IMG/VR virus record: IMGVR_UViG_3300005253_000034
Location: 1 to 54,311 of that record
Length of the DNA: 54,311 nucleotides
Reading direction: 5' to 3' (one strand)
Source of the DNA: a virus
The translations under genes were made by a program, and so were the position numbers. A model generated the notes under the pieces. That model made no database searches, had not been told where the DNA came from, and saw only the letters and a program-made list of their open reading frames with translations. Positions 728-54,311 of the stretch are shown here, one piece after another (positions within the stretch are counted from its first letter, which is position 1; each line of letters opens with the position of its first letter).

Positions 728-756
728 ATTTTAACATACCCTGCGGGGGAAGTCAA
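728..756 (-). promoter_or_regulatory. sigma-70 promoter TTGACT-17-TAAAAT
   Basis: The -35 TTGACT lies at 756-751 and the -10 TAAAAT at 733-728 with a 17-base spacer, predicting a start about 12 bases before the ATG at 709. It sits inside the 3' end of the C5-methyltransferase relic. It would drive the methyltransferase/radical-SAM cassette across the assembly join. Confidence 0.7.
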
Positions 757-982
757 GTAGTTTTTCCATAATTGCTGAAATTACATTGTCGATTTCGGAG
801 AAACCAACACAAGTCGGGGATGGTTGTCTATTATATCGCATATTGCATTCGGTTTCATTATGGAGTAACCTTGAATCTCCGATTTTTTCTTGTCGTTCCG
901 ATGTGCTCGAAACTTGTTGGGAAGCTCTTTGTATTCCAAGTTCAAATCCTCCAATCCCGCTAAATAGCGAAAAATACTTCAT
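731..982 (-). pseudogene. N-terminal relic of a C5-cytosine DNA methyltransferase
   Basis: The 83-residue product starts with FSLFSGIGGFELGIQ, the motif I (SAM-binding FxGxGG) of Dcm-type 5-methylcytosine methyltransferases. After a spacer it continues with CVGFSEIDNVISAI, which matches motif II. It then stops. The catalytic PCQ loop (motif IV), ENV (motif VI) and the target-recognition domain are all absent, whereas the family is normally over 300 residues. The start keeps a good ribosome site (AAAGGATTAAAG before the ATG at 982), so the fragment may still be translated. The last codons coincide with the promoter at 728-756, so the gene appears to have been cut off there. A functional stand-alone peptide is possible but unlikely. 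Confidence 0.75.
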
Positions 983-1456: not shown

Positions 1457-2550
1457 GGAAGTCTCCATTCCCACCGCACAATATTGGCGGTGTGGTTTTT
1501 TACAGGAATACCGAGGATTCCTACTGACTTCTTGGCTCGTTCTAAGGTGCGTTGAGAGTAGCCAAGGTGCTTACCTTCCTCGAAAATGAGCTTAGAATCC
1601 ACACCGCCATCGGACAGGAAAGATTCGAGCCAGTCCCCGGCGTCGGTTTGTTTGCGAGGACGGCCTGATTTTTTTGGGCGAGGAGCCATTAGTTCATCGG
1701 CGGTTAGATGGACCGGTTCCTTTTCAAAGTTGCAGGATGGATAGAAAGATGTTCGATTCTTGAAGGTAACAGGAGTATTTACAAGACGATAAGCGAGACC
1801 TGAACATCGTGCCGCCATATTACCCTTGGCCCAGATCAGGTAGCGGCGATCTTCAGCGTCGGGGTCGTGGAGAACGTACCAGCACATACGGGCGGCATTT
1901 TGTTGACCAACAGAGCCGAGGATGCGTAAGGCTGCGGATGAGTCCTCTTTTTTATTGAAGTGGGTAATTCCAATTACGGTTAGGTGAAAGTCAGCGGCCA
2001 TCTCGCCGAGGGGTCGGAGGAAACTACGGACGGCTATATTGTCGTTAGAGTCGGCTTGTTTACCCGTCATAAAGCCGGTGTAGGGGTCTATGATTACGAG
2101 TAGAGGATTGGGACATTGTTTTATGACCGCAACGAGCATATCGAGGTCGCCTTCATTTTTAGAGAGATTCGTGACTCCAGTGATTCCGGTTTGACCTCCT
2201 TCTAAAGTAACTTTTATGGCCTTGAGGATACAGATTCTCTTGGTATCGGCTCCCATAGCTATTAGTCGAGGCATTATTATATTACCAGGGCTGTCCTCGG
2301 CAGAGAGGATAACCACGTCGCCGGGTTCTCGGGTTGTGCCGGGGGGGTCGTCTATAAAGGGCCGGCCTGTGGTGATTTGGGCAGCCATATAGAGGGTAAG
2401 GGTTGATTTACTGACTCCGCCGAGTCCTGCTATGATAGAAAGCATTCCGAGAGGGAAACGATTAGGCCAGAGCCAATCAACGTGCTCAAGCTCAACCTCG
2501 TGGCCCCAAACAAAAACAGGTTCTTTTTTAACTACTTTAATATTCCCCAT
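1453..2550 (-). CDS. RepA-like P-loop ATPase/helicase with C-terminal winged-helix region
   Basis: The 365-residue protein belongs to the RecA-fold AAA_25/RepA group of hexameric replication ATPases. The Walker A is GLGGVSKST at residues 42-50, with Ser in place of the usual third Gly, and the Walker B lies in LLVIIDPYTG. A GITHFNKK segment follows, as in RepA/KaiC-type enzymes. The C-terminal part after a GRPRK linker looks like a helix-turn-helix (DWLESFL to SQRTLERAKKSVGI), which would suit origin or primer-site binding. Such proteins act as replicative helicases or helicase loaders in phages and plasmids. The gene is alone behind a promoter and a leader hairpin (2562-2619), so its expression may be attenuated. 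The start codon itself lies in a CCCCTAATGGGG palindrome. Confidence 0.85.
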   Translation of the reverse strand: MGNIKVVKKEPVFVWGHEVELEHVDWLWPNRFPLGMLSIIAGLGGVSKSTLTLYMAAQITTGRPFIDDPPGTTREPGDVVILSAEDSPGNIIMPRLIAMGADTKRICILKAIKVTLEGGQTGITGVTNLSKNEGDLDMLVAVIKQCPNPLLVIIDPYTGFMTGKQADSNDNIAVRSFLRPLGEMAADFHLTVIGITHFNKKEDSSAALRILGSVGQQNAARMCWYVLHDPDAEDRRYLIWAKGNMAARCSGLAYRLVNTPVTFKNRTSFYPSCNFEKEPVHLTADELMAPRPKKSGRPRKQTDAGDWLESFLSDGGVDSKLIFEEGKHLGYSQRTLERAKKSVGILGIPVKNHTANIVRWEWRLP

Positions 2551-2561
2551 TAGGGGTTCCT

Positions 2562-2619
2562 AAAAAAAGTAGGGGATGGAAGCGGACACAACCATCCCCC
2601 GAATGGCCTGTGAGCCATT
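2562..2619 (-). terminator. leader hairpins with T-tract (possible attenuator) before the RepA-like gene
   Basis: On the minus strand a hairpin with the 6-bp stem AATGGC/GCCATT (2602-2619) is followed by an 8-bp stem GGGGATGG/CCATCCCC (2572-2599, 12-base loop), then TAC and seven T (2568-2562). This lies downstream of the promoter at 2674-2701 and upstream of the ATG at 2550, so it would stop transcripts before they reach the gene unless it is relieved. Confidence 0.6.
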
Positions 2620-2673
2620 TTGATATGTATGGTAAGAGTCCCTGTCCGCATATTCATCTTTCTCATATACTGC

Positions 2674-2701
2674 ATTATAGCAGATTGGAAGGATATGTCA
2701 A
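2674..2701 (-). promoter_or_regulatory. sigma-70 promoter TTGACA-16-TATAAT
   Basis: The -35 TTGACA lies at 2701-2696 and the -10 TATAAT at 2679-2674, with a 16-base spacer. Its -35 overlaps the last codons of the gene at 2698-3027. It should drive the RepA-like ATPase with a leader of about 115 bases. Confidence 0.8.
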
Positions 2702-3027
2702 GGGGTTTTTAATTGGTAGGCAGGACAATCCTCGCAAGTCCCATCCATATAACGAGTGCAGCTTCCTTTCTTTTTACATTCTTTTTTTGGCTTTCGGCAG
2801 CGGGGGCAGGGACGATATGTAAGGTCTCCATCGGATTCAATATCTCTAAACTCCTCTACCCCACTACCACCACAGTTTTCGCAGGGGAGGAGGGCGAGGG
2901 CTTCATCAAGTAATCTTGTTCTCTTGCAAAAATCACAAGGTACAACATTCTTGTCGTGAGGGCATTTAATCATTTCACGGACTTCCTTGATGAGTTGGCG
3001 GAGTTGGATGATTTGGTCTGGGGTCAT
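2698..3027 (-). CDS. Cys-rich zinc-finger protein, 109 residues
   Basis: The sequence carries several CxxC knuckles: CPHDKNVVPCDFC, PCENCGGSG (a DnaJ-like CxxCxGxG element), RPCPRC, and a C-terminal cluster CKKKGSCTRYMDGTCEDC. It is therefore likely to bind two or more zinc ions. The N-terminus is a predicted helix (QLRQLIKEVREMI). Its ATG overlaps the stop of the upstream zinc-finger gene as ATGA. No enzymatic motif is seen; nucleic-acid or protein binding is a guess. Confidence 0.8.
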   Translation of the reverse strand: MTPDQIIQLRQLIKEVREMIKCPHDKNVVPCDFCKRTRLLDEALALLPCENCGGSGVEEFRDIESDGDLTYRPCPRCRKPKKECKKKGSCTRYMDGTCEDCPAYQLKTP

Positions 3028-3332
3028 TTTGGTTCCTTTCGGAATTTAAGTTTCTCCTCCGGGAATGTTTTTTTGTTTTTATATTCCCCCAAGATGTCTT
3101 TATGGCATATTGGGCAATCGACGGCGGTTATAAAGCATAAGGAGCAATCTAAACAAAACCAATGCCATCTGTGAAAACATCGGAGCCTATTTTTCTTGAA
3201 CTGGAGACTCCCACAGTTGGGACACTTGTCAACTTTTTTAATTATTCGCTGAACAAGATTTTGGATTCTTGTCCCCGGGCCAAACAGATGTATATCCCCA
3301 GGTAAAAAATTAAATATCCAAGCTATTTTCAT
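3024..3332 (-). CDS. zinc-finger protein, 102 residues
   Basis: The central part has regularly spaced metal ligands: CPNCGSLQFKKNRLRC, then H-x2-HWFCLDCSLC and DCPICH, a pattern like a double zinc ribbon or RING-type cross-brace. The N-terminus is hydrophobic (IAWIFNFL) but short. It is the first gene behind the consensus promoter at 3360-3388 and is coupled by ATGA to the next zinc-finger gene. Function unknown. Confidence 0.8.
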   Translation of the reverse strand: MKIAWIFNFLPGDIHLFGPGTRIQNLVQRIIKKVDKCPNCGSLQFKKNRLRCFHRWHWFCLDCSLCFITAVDCPICHKDILGEYKNKKTFPEEKLKFRKEPK

Positions 3333-3359
3333 TTTGCGTCCCCTTCATTTAACAAGTGT

Positions 3360-3388
3360 ATTATAGCAAATTTGCATACCGGTGTCAA
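3360..3388 (-). promoter_or_regulatory. consensus sigma-70 promoter TTGACA-17-TATAAT
   Basis: This is a perfect match in both hexamers: -35 at 3388-3383 and -10 at 3365-3360, spacer 17. The predicted start lies about 20 bases before the ATG at 3332. It argues against an open frame that runs across it (3329-3553). Confidence 0.9.
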
Positions 3389-3428
3389 GGGAAATTTGGG
3401 GGAATTTGAAAATATTTTCGAGATTATT

Positions 3429-3562
3429 TTATCGGATGGAAACAGAACTCGGCATACCTTATCGGACTTTGTTGGCAACGGGATTCTGGACTGCGTGAAT
3501 TTTGGCTCGGAATCCAAAATGAGTTTTAACAGGTGAGGTCTTTCCACTAACATTATCGGACT
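3429..3562. repeat. TTATCGGACT words and ACTGCGTGAATTT (copy A)
   Basis: TTATCGGAT lies at 3429-3437, TTATCGGACT at 3459-3468 and 3553-3562, and ACTGCGTGAATTT at 3490-3502, all on the plus strand. The same two words occur in the same orientation at 6942-7022. Confidence 0.7.
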
Positions 3563-3623
3563 CGCCCGGGGGCCGATGGGGGGTCTCCCTCCGCAGGTTG
3601 TTGGCGGTGCAGGAGTTAGCGTT

Positions 3624-3680
3624 TGGACACTTAGTTATTCAGACTTTCCCTACTTGACTGGACACTTAGTTATTCAGACT
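3624..3680. repeat. 22-bp direct repeat, two copies
   Basis: The word beginning TGGACACTTAGTTATT and ending CAGACT is exactly repeated at 3624-3645 and 3659-3680, 35 bases apart. The second copy ends directly before a TATAAT. Confidence 0.9.
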
Positions 3681-3687
3681 ATATAAT
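3659..3687 (+). promoter_or_regulatory. possible plus-strand promoter TGGACA-17-TATAAT
   Basis: TGGACA at 3659-3664 (start of the second 22-bp repeat) stands 17 bases before TATAAT at 3682-3687. No plus-strand gene follows, so an RNA such as a replication primer or antisense transcript would be its only product. Confidence 0.35.
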
Positions 3688-3775
3688 CCGAGTCAAGTGG
3701 GAAATTGAGGATCGGCGGAGTCCTGACGTGCCCTGTGCTGGACGAAGTGATTAGGCTAAGTGCTATTGGTGGTTG

Positions 3776-8786: not shown

Positions 8787-9048
8787 TTCGCCCCTTTCTT
8801 AAATAATAAATTGTCATGGACGCCCAAATGGTGTGGGCCAACGTAGTAAACGCCCCGCCACCAAAACTCCACCATTGATGAAGGTGGGGGTAATAATGTA
8901 AATTCCAATAACTCCAAGCGGTGAAGAAAATTACCGCCAAGATACTTACTCCTTGTACCTTTTTATCCCGAAACATCTTAATACAATGTAGCAAGATAAA
9001 AAATCCACTACAAAACTCAAATAAACCATTCATATTATCTTGCCACAT
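8770..9048 (-). CDS. small membrane protein, PQ-loop/SemiSWEET-like
   Basis: The 92 residues contain three hydrophobic helices (around 8-23, 33-48 and 65-83) with basic/polar loops. The segment RDKKVQGVSILAVIFF recalls the PQ-loop/SemiSWEET family of small transporters, in which a loop ending in GxS precedes the second helix; the PQ dipeptide itself is not present. Its ATG overlaps the stop of the gene upstream (TAATG). Function unknown; membrane insertion is the firm part of the call. Confidence 0.65.
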   Translation of the reverse strand: MWQDNMNGLFEFCSGFFILLHCIKMFRDKKVQGVSILAVIFFTAWSYWNLHYYPHLHQWWSFGGGAFTTLAHTIWASMTIYYLRKGRNEQEH

Positions 9049-16930: not shown

Positions 16931-17130
16931 ATTTGCTCCCTATACTGAAAAGGACAATGTGGTTCTTTCCCGGAAATATCAACCCAATAATTTTTGTTGT
17001 ATTCTATATCACAACTTCCTTCTTTCCCTAAAGCCCAAGGACATTTCTCGTGGTAATGCCTACATATACTCCAACAACTTCTATATTGTAAATCCCCTGG
17101 AATAATACGTTTCCCCATCATATCAATCAT
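16927..17130 (-). CDS. Cys-rich small protein, 67 residues
   Basis: The product has CWSICRHYHEKCPWALG and SGKEPHCPF, giving several Cys and His suited to one zinc or iron-sulphur site. Both ends overlap neighbours as ATGA, including the DNA polymerase gene upstream. Function unknown. Confidence 0.7.
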   Translation of the reverse strand: MIDMMGKRIIPGDLQYRSCWSICRHYHEKCPWALGKEGSCDIEYNKNYWVDISGKEPHCPFQYREQI

Positions 17131-19754
17131 ATATTATACCTCTCTTTTTCGACTATCCAGGGAATCTCTCGGCCAACCCACCTGTAGAGAATTTCAAGTA
17201 CAGGGGCGTGTTCCATATTCCTGATTATTATTTCATCCACGACTTCTTCCTCGCCGGGATATATGTCGGCAAAGAGGGCATCATAAATCTGCAAACAAAT
17301 CAAAGTTTTTAGATGCAGGTCTCGAAATTCCTGAATTATTTGGAAGTGGGCCGACTGGAGAAGTTGAGCACACGGAGTCTGGTGCATAAAGTTACATATT
17401 TCACTAATATAATTCGCTACCCCACTTGGTCCCAACCCAAAAGTCCGACTCCATCCAGTAGGTAGCATAAGATACCCCTGTTTAGCCGCCAAATCAATTA
17501 TGCTATCTTGCCATTTCTTATAGACAGGATGCTTCTCGTACCACACCTTTATAGATTTATCACAAAAAGCCAAATCTAATTCTACCCCAGTATCCCTAAG
17601 CACCAAAGATTGTAAGGCCACTGGGCCACCTTTGAAAACAACCAAGAAATTTAGACTTTTAGTTGCCTTATATTCTTTAGGGTATTTTTCCTTAAAATCA
17701 GGACAAAATATATCTGGGAAAATAGCCGCCGCCGTTTCGAGATGAATACTTTCTCCCTCTTTTTGATAAACTTCCATCAATGCAGGGTCACCCGACAACA
17801 ACGCCGCCATCCTCAAATGGTCTTGATTATAATCATACTCGGCTAACTTTCCCCCGACCCAACGAGAAGTTGAACATTCTCTAATGGAAGGGGGTTCAGT
17901 TTGCCTTGCAGGTTTTTTACAACTAAAACGTCCTTGTGTTTGCCCACCAACTTTGTCGTCTGAACTACCTCCCCGTTCAAAATAACTTGGAATTGGATAC
18001 CATGAGGGGTAAACCATACCCACATTTCCTGTTCGGATAACGATTCCCCGTCTGGGATTTTCGAGCAATGGTTTTGTGTAGGTGTTGACAATTTTGCTCC
18101 TTTCCTTAAATTCCTGAAACTTAGATACGATGTCCAGATGAATCCCACCCGGCAAATGTTTTTTCAACAGATTAGCATTCTCGACTCCGATAGAAATGTT
18201 TCTCGTCTTGTCCGTGTACTGAACCCGGCTGTCTCCGAGTAAATCTGCTTCAACTACACACTCCGAGAAGAACTGCCGCAAGGGTTTATCTGAGCCTTTC
18301 CCTTTTAGTTTTATTCCGTGTTCTGTTTCGGTTTCCTGCACGAGTTCCTCACATCGAGCAGCTTCTTGGTTGTGGAAACCAGTTAGCTTCTGGATGTCCA
18401 GAGCACTCCCGTTCATATCCAAATCGAAAGTATCCCACACGATTACATTTCTCATCCACGCACATTCGTTACTGATTTTCGGAGAGGTTGGGCCATACCG
18501 CTCAACCATCCTCCGCAGTATTTCTTCTCGCAACTTCAAAGTGGTGACACCATCGACCCCGTTGTACTTATGTAAGTCTTTATCCCAAGGGGACTTAGCA
18601 CTGCCAGATTTCGCAGTAATCATCACTTTACTGTAATCGGAAATCCCCATCAGCATCGACAATTCCTTGAGACCTTTCTCCGGCTGTTGTTCATATAAAA
18701 GAAAACTCAAAATCAAGGTGTCATCTACTTTTAACCTGCGAGGGTCAATCCAGTATCGAAGCTCCGTATCTGCGGAGGCCAGATACATCAAATCAAATTT
18801 TATATTCTGCCCGACAAGAGTAATATTTTGCCGACAAATTACCTGGAACCACTGCCGAATAATCCCCAGATGCTTTGGGTCGCTGAATACATATTCCGCC
18901 GAGTGTATTTTCCCATAAGACAAATCTCGCCACGAAAAATTGACGCAAACTACTTGGTCGGGGAAATCAATTCCATCAATATATTTTGATTTAACGGGAT
19001 TAAAAACTGTTTGTTCTACCTCCTGCAAAATTCCATAGGTTTCAATGTCGCAGGAAACTACTCCCGGTAGCTCCCAAGCCCAAGGGACAGGGATCCCCAG
19101 TTCCGGCTCCTCGATTTCCTCATTAGGAATAAACTTGCCTTCCAGATACCTCCGCAAGAGCAAGAAATGAGCTTCAACCGCTCGTACCAATGCAGGTTTC
19201 CTCAAAGGATGCAACATCGCCAAGTGAAAAGTGCTAAAGACCCGAACCATCGGGAAATCTGGCATCTTTGCCCCCTGTTTCTTAAATGTCTCTTTTAATG
19301 AGCTAATGTTTGTGACGCTATAGGCTCCCTTAGCTCCAATGGCAAAGATAATAACTTCCTCGTACTTGCTCAATAGATATATTATATCCTCAAATAGATA
19401 ATCCCGACAGGCTCTCACCTGTGCTTGAGATACGTCACCGCCTTGAGGATGCCGACAGCGACAAGCATTCGCCAAGTAAATATCACAGTATTTTTCCAGT
19501 TTAGAGGCTTCAATCAATTTGGCGAGTAGCTGTCCGGTATATCCAACCCAAGATTTCCCCTGTTTATCTTCATTCACACCGGGATTTTGACCGACAACCA
19601 AAAGAGCTTTGTCTTTCTCAACCCAAGGATTTTCATTTACATCCCGCGAATTACTAACCAAGGGACCTAATCTTCGGGTCGGTATCCCCACATTCGTCGC
19701 CGAATCACAGAGCGTACATTTCGTACAATCAGGATGTGCTTGGAATTCAATCAT
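17127..19754 (-). CDS. family-4 uracil-DNA glycosylase / family A DNA polymerase fusion
   Basis: An 875-residue fusion. Residues 1 to about 215 are a family-4 (Fe-S) uracil-DNA-glycosylase-like domain: CTKC at 13-16, VVGQNPGVNED at about 54-63, NACRCRHP and C117 as the other cluster ligands, and STFHLAML near the end. Then comes a 3'-5' exonuclease with all three motifs (SCDIETY; GQNIKFD; YNGVD), so proofreading should be intact. The polymerase part has motif A YDYNQDHLR with catalytic D641, motif B YKATKSLNF and motif C QIYDALF with catalytic D825. Compared with E. coli Pol I, the Glu710 position is His646, His881 is Tyr824 and Glu883 is Ala826. UDG-like N-terminal domains on phage polymerases have precedent. 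Replicative polymerase is the likely role. Confidence 0.9.
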   Translation of the reverse strand: MIEFQAHPDCTKCTLCDSATNVGIPTRRLGPLVSNSRDVNENPWVEKDKALLVVGQNPGVNEDKQGKSWVGYTGQLLAKLIEASKLEKYCDIYLANACRCRHPQGGDVSQAQVRACRDYLFEDIIYLLSKYEEVIIFAIGAKGAYSVTNISSLKETFKKQGAKMPDFPMVRVFSTFHLAMLHPLRKPALVRAVEAHFLLLRRYLEGKFIPNEEIEEPELGIPVPWAWELPGVVSCDIETYGILQEVEQTVFNPVKSKYIDGIDFPDQVVCVNFSWRDLSYGKIHSAEYVFSDPKHLGIIRQWFQVICRQNITLVGQNIKFDLMYLASADTELRYWIDPRRLKVDDTLILSFLLYEQQPEKGLKELSMLMGISDYSKVMITAKSGSAKSPWDKDLHKYNGVDGVTTLKLREEILRRMVERYGPTSPKISNECAWMRNVIVWDTFDLDMNGSALDIQKLTGFHNQEAARCEELVQETETEHGIKLKGKGSDKPLRQFFSECVVEADLLGDSRVQYTDKTRNISIGVENANLLKKHLPGGIHLDIVSKFQEFKERSKIVNTYTKPLLENPRRGIVIRTGNVGMVYPSWYPIPSYFERGGSSDDKVGGQTQGRFSCKKPARQTEPPSIRECSTSRWVGGKLAEYDYNQDHLRMAALLSGDPALMEVYQKEGESIHLETAAAIFPDIFCPDFKEKYPKEYKATKSLNFLVVFKGGPVALQSLVLRDTGVELDLAFCDKSIKVWYEKHPVYKKWQDSIIDLAAKQGYLMLPTGWSRTFGLGPSGVANYISEICNFMHQTPCAQLLQSAHFQIIQEFRDLHLKTLICLQIYDALFADIYPGEEEVVDEIIIRNMEHAPVLEILYRWVGREIPWIVEKERYNI

Positions 19755-50782: not shown

Positions 50783-51208
50783 TCATTTTTTGTCCTTTTT
50801 TAGTAAGGGAATAGAATGAGCCACCAGTTTTTTTATCATCGAGGCATCCCGTCCCTCAGATGCTACCATCTCCGCCATTATCTGAGGGGATGCGGCTTGG
50901 GCTAAGATGTCGTCAGTTACTTCGACGAGGAAATTTCCTGTTTTCCTGAGAACAGTATTACCTTTCGCTTTGCTGGCCGGAAACAAGAAACCTGGGCTGC
51001 CGGGACGGCTCAAAACGTACATTATTTTTTTGAATGTGGGTAGGGAAAAGAAAACGTCATCGCCAATATACATAGGCCGGATTCTTAAAGCCTTGAGATA
51101 TAGCAATGCAACTCGACGGGGTATGCTAAAGGTTGTCTCAAGATACCTTAACTCAACAAGGTCTCCGCCACCAAAATCGTGAACTTTCGGTACGTTTAGA
51201 ATTGTCAT
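50783..51208 (-). CDS. hypothetical protein, 141 residues, possible HTH
   Basis: The segment FSIPRRVALLYLKALRIRPM with following YIGDDVFFSLPTFKKIMYVL resembles a winged helix or MerR-like DNA-binding start; the C-terminal half is helical. No family is certain. The position before the terminase genes allows a packaging or regulatory role. Confidence 0.6.
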   Translation of the reverse strand: MTILNVPKVHDFGGGDLVELRYLETTFSIPRRVALLYLKALRIRPMYIGDDVFFSLPTFKKIMYVLSRPGSPGFLFPASKAKGNTVLRKTGNFLVEVTDDILAQAASPQIMAEMVASEGRDASMIKKLVAHSIPLLKKDKK

Positions 51209-51215
51209 ATCCTTA

Positions 51216-51536
51216 TCAGCTTCTTCCTAAATACCGAATAGCCTTCATAAAGAAACCCCGACTGTCATTAAAATAACCCAATATCTGATTACATCTTTGG
51301 CAAAGTAATCCCCGTATCATGCCGGTTTTGTGGTCGTGGTCAACAGCAAGATGAAAATTAAAGTCACTTTGATGTCGTTCACATATAGCACAGCACCCTT
51401 TCTGTTTTCTAAATAATACATCATAGTCCCGAAGGGTCATCCCATAGTTTTTTTTCAAATTGTATTTCCGCTCATAACCCTCTGAATATTTCTCTTTTGC
51501 AGTTAGAGGAGATTGTCGTTTCCGTAGATCGGCCAT
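51216..51536 (-). CDS. endonuclease VII-like HNH endonuclease
   Basis: Start at 51536 with GGAAGGATATATAT before the ATG. The 106-residue product has GCCAICERHQ and AVDHDHKTGMIRGLLCQRCNQILG: four zinc Cys and the DHDH catalytic part of endonuclease VII. It is the first gene behind its own promoter. Probably a free-standing homing-type endonuclease, the second of this family here (see 43220). Confidence 0.9.
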   Translation of the reverse strand: MADLRKRQSPLTAKEKYSEGYERKYNLKKNYGMTLRDYDVLFRKQKGCCAICERHQSDFNFHLAVDHDHKTGMIRGLLCQRCNQILGYFNDSRGFFMKAIRYLGRS

Positions 51537-51558
51537 ATATATATCCTTCCTCATTTAT

Positions 51559-51586
51559 ATTATAGCAGATACTCAATAAGTTTCAA
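51559..51586 (-). promoter_or_regulatory. sigma-70 promoter TTGAAA-16-TATAAT
   Basis: -35 TTGAAA at 51586-51581, -10 TATAAT at 51564-51559. It starts the packaging operon. Confidence 0.8.
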
Positions 51587-51789
51587 GTGGATTTTTTCCA
51601 GAAAGAATGGTGATATTTATAAGGCGTTACTTGCCCCCCGCAAACAACGACTATGCAAAGGGTATTTCTCCTAAATCGACCATAAGCTGTTCCCAAACAA
51701 ACCCCCTTACGATGTTTCGGGAATATATTTTTCTTTATAGCCAACGGTGTTGTCTCCACTGGCATTCCCCATTTGATTCTATGTCTCAT
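51583..51789 (-). CDS. hypothetical protein, 68 residues
   Basis: The product has GVCLGTAYGRFRRNTLCIVV followed by TPYKYHHSFWKK, a strand-turn-strand pattern ending in a YHxSFW element that recurs in short phage proteins of unknown function. The ATG overlaps the radical-SAM stop (ATGA) behind AAGGAGCAAGAA, so it belongs to the same cassette. Confidence 0.7.
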   Translation of the reverse strand: MRHRIKWGMPVETTPLAIKKNIFPKHRKGVCLGTAYGRFRRNTLCIVVVCGGQVTPYKYHHSFWKKST

Positions 51790-52466
51790 TTCTTGCTCCT
51801 TAACATTTCCGGGTCAATTCCGAAGTTTACGAGTTGATTATGTTTTCGTACCCGTCTGCGGAAATCTTTTATTTGCCTTGCTCCCCATCCGATAGGTTCT
51901 ATGTTGGGAGAGACCTGACCATCGAAGTAGCAGTCGGCCACCTTCACCGACCAGATGGCACACAGATACAGTTTCTTGAGACATTCCTCGTAGGGAATTT
52001 CCCAGTTGCAAATCATAAAGACCATCATATCCCTCGACCTGTATCCAGATGCCATTAATGATTTCAGGGCATTCCTTATTCTGATCTGGTCAATGTATCC
52101 AAAATCCCACGCCAAGCGGATTTTCTGGAATCGTGCTTCTTTAAGAGCCTCCGCAAGATCAGAATTTAGAAATCGGTGGTCAACACCACAAACGAGTTCG
52201 TAATGCACGACTTTGTTGTTGACTTTCTGATTCCCTAAGTATTGAATCCTTTCGAGGACACACTCTTGGGACAATATATTCATATCCATTATCTTAACAA
52301 GATTCCGTTCTATTGGTGGAATAGGAAAAACAATCCTCTGTGGAGGTTCATAGCAGAAATCGCACCTATTTGGGCAACCTTGGGAGATGCGAATCCATTG
52401 CTCGGTGTCGTTCATTTTGTTGTAGGGGCCTGTGGAATAGGACCTGATTATACCTCGTTTTTTCAT
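51786..52466 (-). CDS. radical-SAM protein
   Basis: The 226-residue protein has the 4Fe-4S/SAM signature CxxxCxxC as C31-PNR-C35-DF-C38 in the context RISQGCPNRCDFCYEPPQ. Later segments (HYELVCGVDHRFLNSD, KIRLAWDFGYI, MMVFMICNWEIPYEEC) fit successive strands of the partial TIM barrel. It is compact for the superfamily. It is coupled by ATGA overlaps to a Cys-rich metal protein upstream and a 68-residue protein downstream, in one cassette with a DNA methyltransferase. Substrate unknown; modification of DNA or a nucleotide is a reasonable guess. Confidence 0.85.
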   Translation of the reverse strand: MKKRGIIRSYSTGPYNKMNDTEQWIRISQGCPNRCDFCYEPPQRIVFPIPPIERNLVKIMDMNILSQECVLERIQYLGNQKVNNKVVHYELVCGVDHRFLNSDLAEALKEARFQKIRLAWDFGYIDQIRIRNALKSLMASGYRSRDMMVFMICNWEIPYEECLKKLYLCAIWSVKVADCYFDGQVSPNIEPIGWGARQIKDFRRRVRKHNQLVNFGIDPEMLRSKK

Positions 52467-52933
52467 TTCTTTACTCCGATAATGGCTACCTTATAGACTA
52501 CTGTTTCTGGGGGCCATTCCAATTTAACATCTAAGTTTTTCATTGTGGCGGTTACGTTGATGCCCATAGCCTCGGGACAAAAAGATACGTGCCAATTCCC
52601 TCGGCCTTCCAGATAATATACCGTATCTGCAACTACTTCTCTCAGCATTTTATTGGCTGTACCCTGCCAATATAGACAACAATCTATTTGCCGTTGAGAC
52701 CAATCAGGATGTTTCCTTCTCATATTGCGTCGATGGGCGGCAAAGTCGAAGATAATCCAGTTTACCCAAAAACCTTTTGAGATGTTGAACCAATCTTCTA
52801 TTCGGGGGCATTTTGGAGGACAGAAGCCACGTTTGCCATAGTTGGGGCATCCCTTGGGGTGATTAGGATAAGGTCGGAAGCAAAGGTCTCGCACGGAATA
52901 GTCAATTACGATTTCTTTAGTAAAGGCGTTCAT
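52463..52933 (-). CDS. Cys-rich metal-binding protein (DUF2284-like)
   Basis: The N-terminal part has CFRPYPNHPKGCPNYGKRGF followed by CPPKCP, six Cys in a layout like DUF2284-type predicted metal-binding proteins, suitable for an iron-sulphur cluster. The remainder has helices (SQRQIDCCLYWQGTANKMLR) and a late Cys (SFCPEAMGI). ATGA overlaps join it to the methyltransferase upstream and the radical-SAM gene downstream. It may serve as an electron or cluster partner of the radical-SAM enzyme. Confidence 0.75.
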   Translation of the reverse strand: MNAFTKEIVIDYSVRDLCFRPYPNHPKGCPNYGKRGFCPPKCPRIEDWFNISKGFWVNWIIFDFAAHRRNMRRKHPDWSQRQIDCCLYWQGTANKMLREVVADTVYYLEGRGNWHVSFCPEAMGINVTATMKNLDVKLEWPPETVVYKVAIIGVKK

Positions 52934-54311
52934 TTTTGGTTTCTCCTGAGTGCTGCAGAGGCGGCGTCAATAATGCTCTGCCTGCTTTCAGAGACGTGCG
53001 GTGAGTTCTCATTTGGACAACCGCCACCACTCACGAAGCCTGTTGTTGTCCTGACCGTCTCCACGTTCTTAGTAACAGGCAGAGTAGTTTCCAGCGTGAT
53101 TTCTTGTCCCTCCACTGCTGCGATGCGTTTTACGGCGATTTCACAATATTCTCGTTCCTTCTCGATACCGATGAAGCTGATGCCAAGTTCCTTGCAGGCT
53201 ATTCCAGTTGTGCCGGAGCCAAGGAAGGGGTCAAGGATTATCTGGTCTTGGCCGGGCATCTTGAGTAGAGTACAGAGATACTTCATTAGCGTGAGGGGTT
53301 TGACTGTAGGATGGTTATTTTTCACGACAGCGACTCGATTGAGTCCGATGTGTTTTTGCAGATATTCTTTCTCTCCTCGGTTTTCGGCTCCTTGTGCCCC
53401 GCCAGAACGAGCCAAGAGTTTGTCCTCACAATCTTCCATTCCCATATTCCGTTCCTTGCGAGAAGTTTTGGCACAATAAAAAAACCTCGAGGCTCCCCCG
53501 GAATCACCGTAGGTGTCGTTTCGCACCGTGTCAGGATTGAACTTGCCGTAGGTATTTTTGTTGGGGTTATCAGACATCTGACGTTTCGTGCCTGCAGCCA
53601 TAAATCCACTTTTCTTGGTTCCGGTTTGTTCATCCAGCATTCTCACGGAGCATTCGGGATGGCAGGATATTTTTCCGTTTTCATCTCCCCAACAATCAGG
53701 ATGATGAGAAAAGAGTAAATTGGCAGGCCAGCGACCTTGAACTTCGTGTGGAGGATTGTCAGGTTTATTTTTGTCGGCAGAACCAAAAACTTCTTCCTCC
53801 GTTCTGCCACGTCTAATGAATCCTGCTTCTGGATTTTTACGAATTTCTGTGCCTATTTTGCCGCCGTTGATGTTGAGTCCGGCGACTCCGTGTGCCTCGG
53901 CGTTGTGGGCGAATGTGCCGTCCAAAGGTTTCATTGCCACGATGATTGGCTCCCACGCAGGCTTGAGGGCAGTGCCGTAGCCGTCCCAGAGTTGGGCGAG
54001 GGCGGTTTGCGTTTCTGGCATAATTAAAGCATTGTTGATATTATTCCAACCCCGATTATCAATAAGTTCACGGCTTGCAATCGCTCCATACGCAGGTTTC
54101 TTCCCCACTGGTTTTACGCCTTTAGCCTTTTCGATGGCTTTGCTGATGTTATGGGACTTTGGGAAGCCTGAGCCGTAGAGCCACATCATGCAGTCTCGGA
54201 TTTCCCAGCCAGCGTCCTCGATTGCACAGGCGAGGCGATGGTAGGTGCGGGTCCCGCCGAAGCAGAGTAGGAAGCCCCCCGGCTTGGTGATTCGGAGCAT
54301 TTCCTTGGCCC
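52930..54311 (-). CDS. beta-class DNA methyltransferase, C-terminal part (N-terminus at 1-410)
   Basis: The frame is open to the window end and joins the 100 codons at 410-111. The N-terminal side of this part contains MLRITKPGGFLLCFGGTRTY (motif-V/VI-like region), a long insert of about 200 residues that holds Cys/His (SHHPDCWGDENGKISCHPEC) and probably the target-recognition domain, and then the late TVKPLTLMKYLC and DPFLGSGTTG (motif I, about residue 450 of the full protein) and GIEKEREYCEIA. The gene is the start of the radical-SAM cassette. About 556 residues in total. Confidence 0.93.
   Translation of the reverse strand, partial: AKEMLRITKPGGFLLCFGGTRTYHRLACAIEDAGWEIRDCMMWLYGSGFPKSHNISKAIEKAKGVKPVGKKPAYGAIASRELIDNRGWNNINNALIMPETQTALAQLWDGYGTALKPAWEPIIVAMKPLDGTFAHNAEAHGVAGLNINGGKIGTEIRKNPEAGFIRRGRTEEEVFGSADKNKPDNPPHEVQGRWPANLLFSHHPDCWGDENGKISCHPECSVRMLDEQTGTKKSGFMAAGTKRQMSDNPNKNTYGKFNPDTVRNDTYGDSGGASRFFYCAKTSRKERNMGMEDCEDKLLARSGGAQGAENRGEKEYLQKHIGLNRVAVVKNNHPTVKPLTLMKYLCTLLKMPGQDQIILDPFLGSGTTGIACKELGISFIGIEKEREYCEIAVKRIAAVEGQEITLETTLPVTKNVETVRTTTGFVSGGGCPNENSPHVSESRQSIIDAASAALRRNQK
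54191..54311. repeat. terminal direct repeat (right copy)
   Basis: Identical to 1-121; see the left copy. Features in it are counted once. Confidence 0.95.

Follow-up and report, generated by a model that had tools for sequence, protein, structure and literature searches.

A probable mosaic accessory slot of an uncultured tailed phage holding a DNA methyltransferase, a DUF2284 protein and a predicted radical-SAM core protein

The region around the joined ends of the window, i.e., the whole stretch of 54,311 nucleotides of viral DNA analyzed here (IMG/VR record IMGVR_UViG_3300005253_000034), is probably a mosaic accessory slot of an uncultured tailed phage, lying between a gene for a 100-aa protein (407-709) and another for a 141-aa protein (50783-51208), both on the minus strand. 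An earlier note, made from the sequence alone, had taken the DNA methyltransferase (MTase), the Cys-rich protein (here DUF2284), the radical-SAM protein (rSAM) and the 68-residue protein encoded there as one coupled DNA modification unit. Such a fixed four-gene pathway is not supported, because the contents of the slot vary among sister phages. The comparison of those phages shows that DNA methyltransferases and small cofactor proteins enter and leave the slot singly, and rSAM is an independently conserved enzyme, with MTase and DUF2284 missing in most of the phages that carry it.

The window starts and finishes with an exact 121-bp direct repeat (1-121, identical to 54191-54311), where the contig ends join, and the MTase gene was read with the ends joined once over this repeat. 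Its reading frame crosses the join from 410 to 122 and then from 54311 to 52930 (5′ part, 122-410; 3′ part, 52930-54311), stop-free for 1671 bp and 556 aa. The stop and start codons of successive genes share an ATGA at 52930-52933 (MTase TGA with DUF2284 ATG), at 52463-52466 (DUF2284 TGA with rSAM ATG) and at 51786-51789 (rSAM TGA with the ATG of the 68-aa ORF). So, the overlaps and the read-through contained in the four-gene chain of the earlier note were confirmed, while the chain itself grows to five genes, because the 100-aa gene likewise overlaps the MTase start by ATGA. The order, all on the minus strand, is: 100-aa gene, MTase (556 aa), DUF2284 (156 aa, 52463-52933), rSAM (226 aa, 51786-52466) and 68-aa ORF (51583-51789). 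The acceptance of the latter as a gene depends on the ATGA overlap only, because no relatives were found outside one near-identical contig. The ATGA overlaps point to co-expression, which does not prove by itself a common pathway.

Concerning the single promoter proposed for the chain, a sigma-70-like match does exist on the minus strand at 728-756, upstream of the 100-aa gene (TTGACT and TAAAAT with a spacer of 17 and a TG; 10/12 consensus bases), but the stretch that holds it contains two promoter-like matches when 2.1 were expected by chance. A better one (51586-51559) precedes the accessory endonuclease-VII (HNH) gene located at 51216-51554 on the same strand (PF02945, E 7.8e-24).

The assignment of the MTase to the beta class was upheld. 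In beta-class amino-methyltransferases, motif IV (DPPY) precedes the target-recognition region and motif I (FxGxG) follows it, and the 556-aa translation displays TDPPYGLGF near the N-terminus and DPFLGSGTTG near the C-terminus. It also scored over the PF01555 cut-off (E 1.8e-24) and matched phrog_67. Judging from its family, the enzyme would most likely methylate the phage DNA at N6-A or N4-C, thus masking restriction sites.

Sister phages were defined as those with a terL 80-89% identical to that of the window. The borders of the slot are kept in them, with homologues of the 100-aa gene upstream (38-53%) and of the 141-aa gene downstream (48-69%, including cousin phages), but none of MTase, DUF2284 and rSAM was found in all of them. 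The slot contains rSAM alone in L004, where it overlaps the 100-aa gene by ATGA; MTase with an internal insert followed by rSAM in L005; a Dam gene plus rSAM in L006 and L014; MTase alone in L033 and L037/L038; and MTase plus DUF2284 in L034, where rSAM was not detected. In L051/L052, what lies between the 100-aa and 141-aa homologues is a relic of the beta MTase that keeps parts of both ends. At its end, the Dam gene of L014 carries the beta-MTase C-terminal tail (35/54 identical residues), which reads as a scar of replacement. When 25 rSAM-family loci were considered, this MTase adjoined rSAM only in the contig near-identical to the window (its twin) and in L005, and DUF2284 did so only in the twin; no DUF2284 was found in the rSAM-family records searched apart from the window and the twin. 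Conversely, leaving aside one distant rSAM, the rSAM family occurred in 2/23 of the MTase-bearing records besides the window. The comparison of slots is a stronger test than co-occurrence in records, because many records are fragments. For the cassette as a unit, the co-occurrence check that the earlier note had proposed gave the outcome that the note had named as refuting it: the rSAM and DUF2284 genes are mostly encountered in the absence of this MTase, and sister phages lack each gene independently of the others.

Several other genes of the neighborhood deserve mention. The C5-methyltransferase relic to which the earlier note had drawn attention is real (731-982, minus strand). L014 carries the complete gene in this position (992-1990, upstream of the 100-aa gene); about its first 60 and last 18 residues are left in the window, which amounts to an internal deletion. 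The Nmad1-like gene placed at 9048 gave a weak match, below the cut-off (PF07659, E 0.015). Directly downstream of the slot, a SLOG/YspA-like protein (PF10686; 50340-50726, minus strand) is conserved in most sister phages. Farther away, a single ORF (17127-19754, minus strand) combines a uracil-DNA-glycosylase domain with a family A DNA polymerase domain. In L005, the MTase ORF (1606-3765, 719 aa) is broken by an in-frame insert, and the stretch can also be read in a different frame (2361-2855) as an HNH-like protein rich in Cys, which may be a homing element.

The identification of rSAM stood up to analysis. The window protein contains the cluster motif CPNRCDFC, which fits CxxxCxxC, and it matched phrog_9298 (E 4.9e-13), although the score with PF04055 was 20.6 bits, below the gathering cut-off of 29.5. 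Within the family, PF04055 matches were obtained at E ≤ 0.1 in 19/23 members. The AlphaFold2 model (pLDDT 88, pTM 0.83) is a partial (beta/alpha)6 barrel, for which the structure-based search suggested in the earlier note returned AprD4, MiaB, MgmA, TsrM and LipA (lipoyl synthase) with Foldseek probability 1.00. A search of solved structures by sequence with the rSAM family gave no match at E ≤ 1. The 226 residues make up the core only, and the cobalamin-binding domain of the B12-dependent radical-SAM class is absent. By motif and predicted fold, the protein belongs to the radical-SAM superfamily, the cleavage of SAM being a prediction. In the INDEPENDENCE of parts, the rSAM family comprised 20 viral contigs, four contigs binned in Cloacimonadota or archaeal MAGs, and vir520, with mostly unrelated neighbors. 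The gene is under strong purifying selection, with a dN/dS of about 0.09 and nearly saturated synonymous sites.

The motif CxxxCxxC is retained in 19/24 members of the family and missing from 5/24. A histidine replaces the middle cluster cysteine (CxxxHxxC) in five members (L020, L025, L026, L028 and L012), with a two-residue insertion in the case of L012, and the rSAM tree is compatible with either a single or several origins of the change. With a core resembling those of MiaB and AprD4, rSAM would most likely act during infection as a stand-alone modifier, be it of a nucleic acid, a nucleotide or a protein, a role that is proposed tentatively.

The Cys-rich protein belongs to PF10050/DUF2284 (44.3 bits versus a cut-off of 25), its best match being mainly N-terminal (profile positions 5-64 of 161); there was no significant PHROG match. 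A scan with the single protein recovered only the twin contig, while an alignment-based scan recovered 81 encoding stretches; 80 viral contigs were retained from these. The contigs reach 331 kb, and another member occurs in a 735-kb phage. In an alignment of 51 phage members, 46 of which matched PF10050 at E ≤ 0.01, the invariant residues are C18, Y22, H25, G28, C29, P30, N31, W78, YWQ (88-90), E121 and G124, and C38 is conserved in 49. The conservation of C18, H25, C29 and C38 suggests binding of a metal or an Fe-S cluster. DUF2284 can be described as a small metal-site protein, probably of the Fe-S kind. The predicted fold is confident (AlphaFold2 pLDDT 95, pTM 0.87), and the fold search of PDB and BFVD gave nothing significant. 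The only match by sequence to solved structures, a tagged VemP construct, was discarded, since its tag region had matched by chance. Among the cellular DUF2284 members there are selenoproteins in which a fusion with an arsenite methyltransferase has taken place (PMC13188914). In the literature, nothing was found on phage DUF2284 or on the rSAM family of the window, and the mentions of DUF2284 found concern non-phage settings. The nearest relative of the window DUF2284 is that of the cousin phage L063 (61%; terL, 59%), where it sits elsewhere, between the homologue of a 309-aa protein and terL, while the DUF2284 of L034 falls in another, well supported clade. Because the window protein groups with that of L063 and not with that of L034, DUF2284 most likely entered twice behind this MTase.

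The relationship of DUF2284 to radical-SAM genes in general was evaluated in the 80 contigs, 31 of which contain a PF04055 gene (E ≤ 0.01). The nearest one was less than 1 kb away from DUF2284 in 8/31 contigs, versus 1.5 expected from random placement (P 5e-5), and less than 500 bp away in five, versus 0.8 expected (P 5e-4); since one contig is the twin of the window, the independent counts are seven and four, respectively. DUF2284 lies close to, or overlaps, unrelated rSAM genes in the window, L073, L077, L079, L091, L127 and L136. The adjacent rSAMs represent at least four lineages (window-like, 170-aa short form, PA0069/Rv2578c-like and MoaA-like), and the adjacency label changes at least five times on the DUF2284 tree. 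As a control, MTases were counted near DUF2284 in the same contigs, and they were also enriched (five within 1 kb versus 1.7 expected; 15 within 5 kb versus 7.5), so part of the adjacency signal is due to the clustering of accessory genes. The signal of rSAM was nevertheless tighter than that of MTases (8/10 versus 5/15; Fisher P 0.03). Three-way co-location of rSAM, DUF2284 and MTase gave P 0.06, and no such clustering is claimed. In L073 (5426-5938) and L077 (5484-5987), rSAM proteins of 167-170 aa are encoded immediately before DUF2284, and of the rSAM profiles they match the N-terminal half alone, after which they continue into a tail rich in Cys. In L127 (3262-6639), an unrelated phage, a C5-methyltransferase, a PA0069/Rv2578c-like rSAM and DUF2284 are contiguous, the last two overlapping by ATGA.

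What has to be weighed against the slot interpretation is that MTase, DUF2284 and rSAM are translationally coupled in the window, and that the two entries of DUF2284 behind this MTase, together with the L127 trio, could hint at a functional link. The coupling and the trio also speak for a single pathway, in which rSAM would act on bases with DUF2284 as its Fe-S partner to give a modification beyond plain methylation; the presence of MTases in about 8/25 neighborhoods of the rSAM family, and their frequency near DUF2284, go in the same direction. Nevertheless, each gene occurs without the others in sister phages, the rSAM and DUF2284 families meet in no contig but the window and its twin, and no base-synthesis genes appeared among about 25 window proteins scanned, so this pathway is very unlikely. 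Even less credit can be given to its most far-reaching version, in which phage DUF2284 would be an Fe-S partner of new fold, repeatedly recruited by unrelated rSAMs, the pair would modify phage DNA beside the MTase to an undescribed product, and the rSAM family would tolerate His in place of a cluster Cys, departing from the radical-SAM rule.

A better possibility, though one somewhat short of even, is a facultative enzyme system of two proteins, DUF2284 and rSAM, in which the MTase has no part; it is compatible with the slot interpretation. DUF2284 would give electrons or a cluster, or present the substrate, to whichever rSAM adjoins it. Its repeated placement by unrelated rSAMs, and the label changes on its tree, are in agreement with this; in view of that adjacency, DUF2284 located beside an rSAM would most likely act as its electron donor or cluster partner. 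On the other hand, no PF04055 gene shows in 49/80 DUF2284 contigs (many of them fragments), L034 carries DUF2284 with rSAM not detected, and MTases cluster near DUF2284 too. The idea of the earlier note that the Cys-rich protein is a possible iron-sulfur partner of rSAM gains support from the above-random adjacency; a pathway shared with the MTase is not supported. It could also be argued that the rSAM family is a derived cluster- or RNA-binding protein rather than a working radical-SAM enzyme, as would fit the Cys to His change of five members and the low PF04055 score of the window protein. This is unlikely, given the motif kept by the window protein and 19/24 members, the fold matches to active enzymes at probability 1.00 and the purifying selection.

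Under the preferred interpretation as a mosaic slot, the cassette as such is ordinary phage mosaicism, with MTases and other accessories exchanged in one place. The slot leads, however, to two widespread phage families that are uncharacterized so far as libraries and papers show: a minimal rSAM enzyme, in which the three-Cys motif is altered in some members, and DUF2284, with a confident predicted fold lacking a match among solved structures and a repeated location beside unrelated rSAM genes. Should DUF2284 turn out to partner phage rSAMs in general, it could be used as a marker to find these enzymes in phages that have not been cultured.

With respect to known systems, the phage pathways of base hypermodification (7-deazaguanine, modified thymidines) include in some cases rSAM enzymes, and no companion base-synthesis or transfer genes were seen among the roughly 25 window proteins scanned. 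The MTase resembles the orphan beta-class DNA methyltransferases of phages (PF01555, phrog_67) in motif order, domain match and phage context, but it has a long variable middle region and, among those found, only in the window phage does it share an operon with DUF2284 and rSAM. With the B12-type and MiaB-like enzymes (AprD4, MgmA, TsrM, MiaB), rSAM shares the partial-barrel core (TMq 0.48-0.63), whereas it carries no cobalamin, TRAM or other extra domain and its identity to them is only 9-14%. Marinitoga camini virus 1 encodes a longer, weak homologue. The 'radical SAM domain protein' of phrog_9298, e.g., that of vir520, a virus of Methanofastidiosa, is of the same family (42% identity), but in vir520 the cluster motif is disrupted (GCPWSDIHDYC) and the neighbors are different. 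Finally, the phage DUF2284 proteins share with the predicted metal-binding proteins of PF10050 the N-terminal Cys-rich part, with scores over the cut-off, and differ from them in carrying a C-terminal signature of their own (YWQ, PEAMG).
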